Origin: Bacillota bacterium
GTDB lineage: Bacteria; Armatimonadota; Hebobacteria; Hebobacterales; Hebobacteraceae
Length of the DNA stretch: 6,542 nt
NCBI GenBank assembly: GCA_030668755.1
Contig: DAOVEW010000065.1
Location: forward strand, 1 to 6,542
Direction: 5' to 3'
The notes under the pieces were generated by a model. It was not told the DNA's origin. It did not search any database and saw nothing but the letters and a program-made list of their open reading frames with translations. This document shows, one piece after another, positions 99 through 1,303 of the stretch; position 1 is the stretch's first letter; the number at the start of each line of letters is the position of its first letter. The translations under genes and the position numbers were made by a program.

Positions 99-893
99 CT
101 AGTCCGCATCGCACAAGCACAACCGCCGCTCGTAGAGCGAGTTGTCTTGGCAAAGGAACCCGAGATGGGCATCACGGTAATCCTCTTCGGCGTGCGGCGT
201 CAGCCCTTCCCCGTACGGGCAGAATCCCGTCGAGTGCACGTACACCATCGGCATCGCCCGCGCGTGCCCGTCGCAGAACGCGACGTTCGTCATGCCGTTA
301 TGTCGGAAGTGCGTCGAAGGGTCCGCCTCCGCACCCCAGCGCGCGTAATAGGGCGCCTCGCAGAACGAGTACTCGAACAGATTCCCGTCGCAGTCCAGGA
401 ACGCAGTATCGGTCAACATCACTGTCTCTGCCAGGTTGTTTATCTCGAACTCCTTGGCCGGCACGCACATCTGCGGCCAGCTCGCAGGCGTCCCGCCCAC
501 GTACTGCGCGTTGTAGCCGTAGCCCCCTGCGCCCTGCTCGAATCCGCCGTACTCCGACGTCACCGAGAAACTCGGGCAGGACTTGATCTGATCGTTCTTG
601 AGATAGTCCCACAGCGGCCCGCCCTCCGACTGGAACGGGTCATCGGTGCTTGCCCTGACTCCATGCCACCGCATCAAGTTATCCGGGCTCTGCGCGGGGA
701 CGAAGCCGCCGTCGTTGTCCGCCACATACATTAGGATCGCCAGTGAGAGCTGCTTGATGTTCGATATGCACGTCGCCCGACGCGCGCTCTCCCGCGCCCG
801 CGCGAACACCGGGAAGACCATCATCGTCAGAATCCCGATGATCGCGATCACCACTAACAGCTCGATCAGTGTGAAGCCACGCCTGCGTCCCAT
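99..893 (-). CDS. Prepilin-type pseudopilin with H-X9-DG motif (DUF1559-like)
   Basis: The 264-residue product is an exported pilin-like protein. Residues 1-6 (MGRRRG) form a short basic leader for a prepilin peptidase. Cleavage would fall between G6 and F7, leaving FTLIELLVVIAIIGIL with the conserved glutamate E11 at position +5 of the mature protein. The hydrophobic helix (about 8-29) runs into FPVFARARESARRATCISNIKQL. The C-terminal half is a beta-rich globular domain with H198-X9-D208-G209 (HNGMTNVAFCDG), the diagnostic H-X9-DG signature. It is rich in cysteines (42, 106, 143, 168, 178, 207, 225, 248, 259, 261), which suggests disulfides outside the membrane. I chose the ATG at 891-893 because GGAGG (899-903) lies 5 bases upstream. 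An in-frame ATG at 957-959 would add 22 non-leader residues. The gene lies 85 bases downstream of an intrinsic terminator belonging to a cobalamin riboswitch, so it should be B12-regulated. The exact role of these pseudopilins is not established. Confidence 0.93.
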   Translation of the reverse strand: MGRRRGFTLIELLVVIAIIGILTMMVFPVFARARESARRATCISNIKQLSLAILMYVADNDGGFVPAQSPDNLMRWHGVRASTDDPFQSEGGPLWDYLKNDQIKSCPSFSVTSEYGGFEQGAGGYGYNAQYVGGTPASWPQMCVPAKEFEINNLAETVMLTDTAFLDCDGNLFEYSFCEAPYYARWGAEADPSTHFRHNGMTNVAFCDGHARAMPMVYVHSTGFCPYGEGLTPHAEEDYRDAHLGFLCQDNSLYERRLCLCDAD

Positions 894-977
894 CGCCGCC
901 TCCGTGTAAGTGTAAGATTTCCGCGGAAGGAAGCCGGCTTCGGACACTCGCGTCCGCACCGCGCAAGACGGCGAACG

Positions 978-1009
978 AAAAACCCCGACCGCCGAAACGG
1001 TGGCCGGGG
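978..1009 (-). terminator. Intrinsic terminator of the riboswitch expression platform
   Basis: On the minus strand CCCCGGCCACCG (1009-998), a TTT loop and CGGCGGTCGGGG (994-983) form a 12-pair stem with one A-C mismatch and one G-U pair. TTTTT (982-978) follows directly. This is a textbook Rho-independent terminator. It sits between the cobalamin aptamer (which ends near 1071) and the pseudopilin start at 893, where a transcription-terminating expression platform belongs. A possible antiterminator is GGGGC (1041-1037), which could pair with GCCCC (1010-1006) on the 5' arm; that pairing is only five bases and speculative. Confidence 0.88.
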
Positions 1010-1070
1010 CGACAGACTGACAAGAGCCCGCGCCGAGCCCCTTCCCGCGAAGTGGCTGTACGCTCCGTCA

Positions 1071-1228
1071 GGCAGATCGGTCTCCTGGCTTCCGCATCAC
1101 CCTACTCCCCGCGCCTTCCCGTACTCCGCTCAGCGGAACACAGTGGCATGCTGCGGGTTTCGTCCGCGGTCACAGTTGCGGGGCAGCCCCGGTCTTTAAC
1201 CGGATTCCCAAACGCATCTACCTGCCGC
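1071..1228 (-). promoter_or_regulatory. Cobalamin (B12) riboswitch aptamer
   Basis: Read on the minus strand, the landmarks of the cobalamin family (Rfam RF00174) appear in order. GGGAATCCGGTTAAAGACCG (1209-1190) is followed by CCCCGCAACTGTG (1183-1171), then GCCACTG (1147-1141), GGGAAGGC (1120-1113) and the B12-box-like AGCCAGGAGACCGATCTGCC (1090-1071). The closing helix can form between GGCAGGT (about 1226-1220) and ATCTGCC (1077-1071), with one G-U pair. The hairpin CCGCT/AGCGG (1136-1126) fills the peripheral domain between GCCACTG and GGGAAGG. The known role of this family is to bind a cobalamin and switch off the downstream gene. The expression platform here is the intrinsic terminator at 978-1009, so B12 would promote early termination. 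The 5' and 3' limits are approximate. The first gene downstream is a pseudopilin, which is not a usual target. Confidence 0.95.
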
Positions 1229-1248
1229 ATGTTATTCGGTTGTCACGG

Positions 1249-1267
1249 GCAGCCCACTGCGGGCTGC
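1249..1267 (-). other. 5'-end hairpin of the riboswitch transcript
   Basis: GCAGCCC (1267-1261) and GGGCTGC (1255-1249) form a perfect 7-pair stem with a 5-base loop. It begins almost exactly where transcription from the promoter at 1275-1303 should start. A hairpin at the very 5' end could protect the leader from degradation. It may be an accessory stem ahead of the aptamer core; it is not needed to recognise the riboswitch. Confidence 0.45.
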
Positions 1268-1274
1268 GGCTACA

Positions 1275-1303
1275 CCTATACCATCCGACCCCCGCTTTGT
1301 CAA
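1275..1303 (-). promoter_or_regulatory. Sigma70-type promoter of the riboswitch-pseudopilin transcript
   Basis: On the minus strand a perfect -35 box TTGACA (1303-1298) is separated by exactly 17 bases (1297-1281) from the -10-like box TATAGG (1280-1275). Transcription would start near 1268, about 40 bases ahead of the aptamer core. Spacing, match quality and position all fit a housekeeping promoter driving the riboswitch. The -10 box matches the TATAAT consensus at 4 of 6 positions. Confidence 0.75.

Follow-up and report, generated by a model that had tools for sequence, protein, structure and literature searches.

A cobalamin riboswitch and a terminator precede a pseudopilin gene

The window analysed here is an entire contig of 6,542 bp (DAOVEW010000065.1) from a genome of the phylum Armatimonadota, and it carries a pseudopilin gene behind a cobalamin (vitamin B12) riboswitch. 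All parts of this arrangement lie on the minus strand, in the order in which a transcript would read them. First, a promoter-like site (1275..1303), read from the sequence, consists of TTGACA (1303-1298), a 17-nt spacer and TATAGG (1280-1275), and matches 10 of 12 consensus bases; it is absent from the output of our consensus scan because that scan demands T as the last base of the second hexamer. Second, the aptamer (1058..1236) matches the cobalamin riboswitch model RF00174 over its full length (model 1-189 of 189, window 1236-1058), scoring 93.8 bits (gathering score 31.5) with an E value of 4.9e-23. Third, an expression platform is present between aptamer and gene, namely, an intrinsic terminator (978..1010, read from 1010 to 978) that starts 47 nt past the aptamer and comprises the G+C-rich stem-loop GCCCCGGCCACCG-TTT-CGGCGGTCGGGG, followed by TTTTT. 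Fourth, a Shine-Dalgarno sequence, GGAGG (899..903), also read from the sequence, lies 5 nt upstream of the ATG (893-891); the same GGAGG precedes the pilin start in genomes G002, G004, G005 and G007. No supported gene was seen between riboswitch and pseudopilin in the window. An earlier note, made from the letters of this DNA, had placed a promoter, a B12 aptamer, a terminator and an H-X9-DG pseudopilin in this order on one strand and had proposed the RF00174 model as a check; the order is confirmed, and an RF00174 score below threshold, named there as a refuting result, did not occur.

The pseudopilin gene (99..893; coding 893-102, stop 101-99) encodes 264 amino acids with a prepilin N-terminus, the start of a DUF1559 domain and an H-X9-DG signature. 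Its prepilin cleavage and methylation motif is matched by PF07963 (36 bits, cut-off 21.2) and, above cut-off, by TIGR02532 (34.7 bits); PF07596 (DUF1559) is matched at 34.9 bits (cut-off 23.3) over profile positions 2-28 only; and the H-X9-DG signature is exact (H198, D208-G209), with a TIGR04294 score of 19 that equals the cut-off. The protein misses the equivalog cut-offs of GspG (TIGR01710, 40.2 of 88.85) and ComGC (NF040999, 29.8 of 75), and a domain search found no BtuB-type plug or beta-barrel domain in it. A structure model of the protein has a pLDDT of 93.8. A B12-binding fold was sought for the pilin by structure search and rejected, as the matches listed were pilins and nothing else.

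Leaders of the same kind were examined at 40 riboswitch-pilin loci, which come partly from close relatives and are thus not independent. An intrinsic terminator was found in 17 of the 40 (one terminator being counted twice), where simple shuffles predict 0.6, and these terminators lie mostly 41-106 nt behind the aptamer. The source genome of the window is 55% complete and contains a single RF00174 match; its phylum was read from a 73% identical protein (P0012) that is named as Armatimonadota. Only about 100 nt of contig remain past the pilin gene, so its downstream genes, and any operon they form, fall outside the view.

The riboswitch-pilin order recurs across Armatimonadota

Matches to RF00174 (E 0.001) were present in 57 of 61 genomes of the phylum, 89 matches in total, and a pseudopilin starts within 700 nt downstream of 48 of these 89 riboswitches. 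Among the 83 riboswitches fetched first, a prepilin motif follows within 700 nt on the same strand in 43, and a pilin lies about 1.1 kb downstream at two further loci (L089 and L091); at five of the remaining six loci a pilin is found 52-195 nt behind the riboswitch. At L071 (G058:C83:28755-29225), two cobalamin riboswitches stand in tandem before one pilin. The density of pilin motifs within 700 nt behind riboswitches is 141-fold that of the remainder of the same 885 kb (43 motifs versus 9), a figure in which the pilin of G058 is counted twice, once for each of its riboswitches, as are overlapping loci.

A second set of genomes, held out from this analysis, comprised 80 (G061-G140) of 119 new ones. 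Of the pilins scoring at least 236 bits among the matches listed, 63 of 76 sit within 1,026 nt behind a riboswitch, at a median distance of 157 nt, and 63 of the 90 riboswitches have such a pilin; the riboswitch scans of both genome sets used stricter filters that lose weak riboswitches. Five of the other 27 riboswitches, from genomes with an unlisted pilin match, were fetched, and all five showed a pilin. A chance neighbourhood is rejected by the motif density together with this held-out test. The expectation that related genomes would share the riboswitch-to-pseudopilin order was thereby borne out (48 of 89 and 63 of 90), and the opposite outcome named in the earlier note, that in relatives the riboswitch never neighbours this gene, did not occur. 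The aptamers do not all fit RF00174 best: AdoCbl-II (RF01689) fits better at L203, L204, L205, L206 and L208 (families f15 and f16), which are five of the six loci added to the first 83, in a comparison that covered 8 of 14 chosen loci and left out L190-L194 and L207. We found no earlier report of a link between cobalamin riboswitches and pseudopilins in the literature searched, which mostly excluded subscription papers and preprints.

Most other riboswitch targets are B12 genes

The first recognised gene behind the 83 riboswitches is a pilin in 45 cases (a count that includes both G058 riboswitches before their single pilin, and the distant pilins of L089 and L091), BtuF-like in nine, BtuB-like in nine, CobU in six, PduO-like in two, and ExbB and BtuC in one each. 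Pfam confirmed the tested representatives of BtuF, the TonB receptor, CobT and CobS, the remaining names coming from reading the sequences. In 10 of the 83 the first gene was given no name, and the five of these ten targets that were tested are cobalamin-independent methionine synthase, NRDD, ThiC and two ribonucleotide reductases to which no class was given. ThiC apart, the predicted targets match the expected content of a B12-shortage regulon. The ThiC gene (L051:5170-6561, G011), directly behind a strong cobalamin riboswitch, is an unusual target.

The neighbours of the pilins bear on an alternative raised in the earlier note, that the pilin just happens to open a transport operon; for an operon of B12 transport, the pilin itself would then be without a B12 role. 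In favour of this alternative, a recognised gene of B12 uptake or salvage (BtuF, BtuCD or cob) follows the pilin in 17 of 45 loci. Against it, the genes after the pilin are on the opposite strand in, for example, G016, G030, G043 and G054, which makes the pilin a target in its own right; where at least 1.5 kb can be read past the pilin (42 loci), 27 loci lack a recognised B12 gene within 2.5 kb, although recognition rested on sequence clusters and may miss some; and persistence in the linked loci of 25 families is not what one expects of a passenger. We therefore regard a pilin without a B12 role as very improbable. The proposal of a B12-switched pilin for vitamin capture, which may coexist with an operon, gains support from its recurrence in relatives and from the single pilin family described below.

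The linked pilins form one family

The riboswitch-linked pilins, that of the window among them, belong to one family, the sole exception among those examined being the long linked pilin of G009 (L044), a genome without any match at 1e-40 to our family profile, A1. This profile was built from 40 linked pilins (leaving out L044, L082, the G058 duplicate, L089 and L091) and detects 11-100 relatives in each of 12 genomes. Ten of these genomes have linked copies, and in every one of the ten such copies lead by a wide gap, with 266-327 bits versus at most 194, and in the two BtuB genomes G018 and G056, scored in full, A1 finds background only, at 148 bits or less. The circularity of a profile made from linked pilins was addressed by the held-out genomes and by leave-one-family-out profiles, with which 62 of 62 linked pilins (196-312 bits; without L044, L082 and the duplicate, with L224 and its weak riboswitch) beat the best of 21 background paralogs (188 bits at most), these being the next-best matches from the 12 genomes. 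A tree of 102 proteins has a branch (support 89/86) that separates linked pilins and their unlinked sisters from the rest, though many of its inner forks are unsettled.

The DUF1559/H-X9-DG paralogs of the same genomes share the domain content of the linked pilins but not the riboswitch link. Three residues also set them apart: all 62 linked pilins have R197 and, in a GYGYN loop, G124 and Y127, whereas the background paralogs share these residues seldom or less often. These residues are the first candidates for a putative binding site.

Pilin and BtuB tend to exclude each other

Ordinary porins do not admit a molecule as large as B12, and its established way across the Gram-negative outer membrane is by BtuB with TonB. 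An outer membrane is implied for these bacteria by the presence of secretins in 61 of 61 genomes. Within this set, 13 genomes have a riboswitch-linked plug-domain receptor (BtuB) and 46 have a pilin of at least 216 bits, a threshold set after the scores were seen. Three genomes have both, ten BtuB only, 43 the pilin only and five neither (Fisher p 7e-6; p 4e-7 among the 57 riboswitch-bearing genomes). The one riboswitch-linked receptor tested, L045, fits TonB-B12 best but below its cut-off. Families f5, f8 and f18 contain both states, so the exchange probably happened more than once.

In the ten BtuB-only genomes, for which either all candidates or up to 150 were scored, no candidate exceeds 196 bits. 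Shallow scoring (55 candidates per genome) was considered as the cause of the exclusion and rejected, since eight BtuB-only genomes rerun with up to 150 candidates gave nothing above 196 bits, three of them having no match at 1e-40 and six some candidates unscored. The held-out set has a single riboswitch-linked plug protein, in G071, and G074 has a BtuB-type receptor at the edge of a contig; at 1e-62, no pilin match was obtained in either genome. A role as B12 receptors is not supported for the TonB receptors of G087 and G097, as they fit TOL_0244 better. G000 has one weak plug protein and is too incomplete for the absence of BtuB to be claimed.

No plug-domain match at all was found in 21 of the 46 pilin genomes, which, together with a B12-switched pseudopilin at the place of btuB in the regulon, points to a second route. 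These data also speak to a purely regulatory link, in which B12 shortage would induce a pilus for attachment or movement that brings the cell to B12 producers or to surfaces. Type IV pilins commonly serve adhesion and motility, and the pilin is often alone behind its riboswitch; however, a single family is involved though 12 genomes offer 11-100 relatives each, and this family trades places with BtuB, which leaves attachment or movement a rather improbable explanation.

BtuH-like companions of the pilin

Companion genes were found at some loci. In one lineage of Planctomycetota (Phycisphaerales), the riboswitch is followed by a secreted protein, whose predicted fold best matches BtuH, and then by the pseudopilin. 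In Armatimonadota family f20, a protein related to this companion is located behind the pilin: one f20 protein alone against profile A4 gave a weak match (probability 1.1), and a four-protein f20 alignment against A4 gave an E value of 1.6e-11. No profile relation of the companions to BtuH was seen with A4, A5 or A6. The third gene of an f20 riboswitch locus (L058:5250-6242) encodes a secreted protein of 331 aa whose propeller-like matches are weak and whose PEP-CTERM signal barely exceeds the NCBIfam cut-off. In G050 (L208:1602-3618), what follows an AdoCbl-II riboswitch is no pilin, but a secreted propeller-like protein, so named by eye and with no Pfam match, and a BtuH-like protein.

Such companions suit a role in export, in which the protein would be a dedicated pseudopilin of a type II-like machine and would help, when B12 is short, to export B12-binding surface proteins (BtuH-like, PEP-CTERM) or to anchor them, with no inward transport of the vitamin. 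Pseudopilins are known parts of type II secretion, and both in Phycisphaerales and in f20 the locus with riboswitch and pilin also encodes PEP-CTERM-type and BtuH-like proteins. Yet two companion profiles matched nothing directly behind the linked pilins at the other fetched loci (6,492 open reading frames, E up to 1), and a pure export role does not predict exclusion with BtuB. We consider export alone unlikely, if less so than the explanations weighed above.

Family members without a riboswitch and a sister branch

We also read 20 loci of family members without a linked riboswitch, namely, 12 of the 13 unlinked held-out pilins (G109:C50 was left out) and eight from the first set. A search with cmscan (E up to 0.5) for another riboswitch class at these loci found none in the 20 except a weak RF00174 in L224, and this possibility was rejected. 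At L211 the pilin shares its operon with a PduO-like gene and two BtuF-like ones; at L224 it stands with a sub-threshold riboswitch (RF00174, 22.6 bits), CobU and CobT; and L215 and L216 are cut by contig ends. Six unlinked sister pilins directly adjoin PepSY-TM proteins (L217, L218, L219, L225, L227 and L229). PepSY-TM is rare, with eight genes in 7 of 73 genomes, and six of these genes adjoin a family pilin; in the 61 genomes, which were not chosen for unlinked pilins, three of five do so. Because PepSY-TM proteins often neighbour siderophore receptors, this sister branch may serve metal chelates. At L218, a CobW-type GTPase and PhoX lie close by as well, and at L237 (G031:C7) both the PepSY-TM gene and the adjoining pilin look frame-broken.

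Other genes in the window

Divergent from the pseudopilin, on the plus strand, lies a gene for a 787-aa protein with discoidin-type and PKD domains (1765-4128). Domain searches identified an M20 deacylase of the ArgE/DapE type on the minus strand (4226-5377) and, truncated where the contig stops, a C11 protease of the clostripain family (5557-6540).

A putative pilin-based route for B12

The sequences show the order of the parts and the phylum-wide link; they also show that one pilin family is involved, that most other targets have a B12 character, and that this pilin and riboswitch-linked BtuB nearly exclude each other. On this basis we think it probable, though far from certain, that riboswitch and terminator stop transcription of the pseudopilin gene when B12 is plentiful, and that the pilin is made under shortage, likely as a cell-surface part of B12 uptake in the place of BtuB. 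An off switch is what the riboswitch class suggests here: when B12 is scarce, the aptamer would be empty, the terminator would not form and the pilin would be made, in line with the known behaviour of the class.

Several observations weigh against this reading. As regards the switch, no more than 17 of the 40 leaders yielded a terminator, and the riboswitch targets include one, ThiC, that does not belong to the B12 genes. As regards the pilin, it matched no B12-binding fold itself; 10 of the 20 riboswitch-less family loci show no B12 neighbour; and the scores form a continuum in the wider set, with values up to about 200 bits for unlinked paralogs, up to 291 for unlinked sisters and near 216 for some linked pilins. 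As regards the exclusion, G031, G053 and G055 have both BtuB and pilin; the signal is weaker at the level of families (28 families, 3/3/21/1, p 0.022), so that shared ancestry explains part of it; the 216-bit threshold was chosen with the scores in view; and G050 has neither a riboswitch-linked pilin nor BtuB, with propeller- and BtuH-like proteins behind its riboswitch. Finally, in the one contig scan made of other phyla, whose six loci were checked, four lack a cobalamin riboswitch and two have one, and the two Phycisphaerales pilins, from related genomes, score 165-170 bits, inside the background range.

If the pilin does serve B12 uptake, it would be processed and assembled by a type IV pilus or type II secretion machine; the head of the pilus, or a bound secreted BtuH-like partner, would hold B12 outside the cell; and the vitamin would then pass through the secretin to BtuF-BtuCD. 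In its broadest form, this would be a new class of outer-membrane vitamin acquisition, in which a B12-repressed pseudopilus, with or without secreted BtuH-like catchers, captures cobalamin and delivers it via the secretin to BtuF, replacing BtuB-TonB, while the sister branch beside PepSY-TM does likewise for metal chelates. We put this forward tentatively, as a possibility that falls somewhat short of an even chance.

Known systems offer partial parallels. The BtuBFCD uptake system with its btuB riboswitch (Escherichia coli, Bacteroides) shares with the present loci the cobalamin riboswitch, the B12-shortage regulon and, in part of the loci, the BtuF/BtuCD neighbours, but has a TonB-dependent barrel behind the riboswitch where a pseudopilin is found here, in genomes that often (21 of 46) have no plug-domain match. 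Compared with the ComGC-type competence pseudopilus and GspG, the pilins described here have a larger H-X9-DG head, are regulated by a B12 switch and have B12, rather than DNA or a secreted protein, as presumed substrate. In Bacteroides, BtuG, BtuH and BtuJ are riboswitch-controlled surface proteins for B12 capture (PMC10404256, PMC8941943, PMC13398666), and the word pilin is absent from the main texts of these three papers. The present loci resemble them in riboswitch control and, in some cases, in BtuH-like domains; the difference is that BtuG is a lid on BtuB, whereas here BtuH-like proteins, some with PEP-CTERM ends, accompany a pseudopilin.

What is new is a pseudopilin family of the predicted B12 regulon that tends to take the place of BtuB in this phylum. 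A role of the pilin in B12 uptake is likely, as judged from its genomic context, and it provides a concrete substrate lead for the large and unexplained DUF1559/H-X9-DG pilin families.
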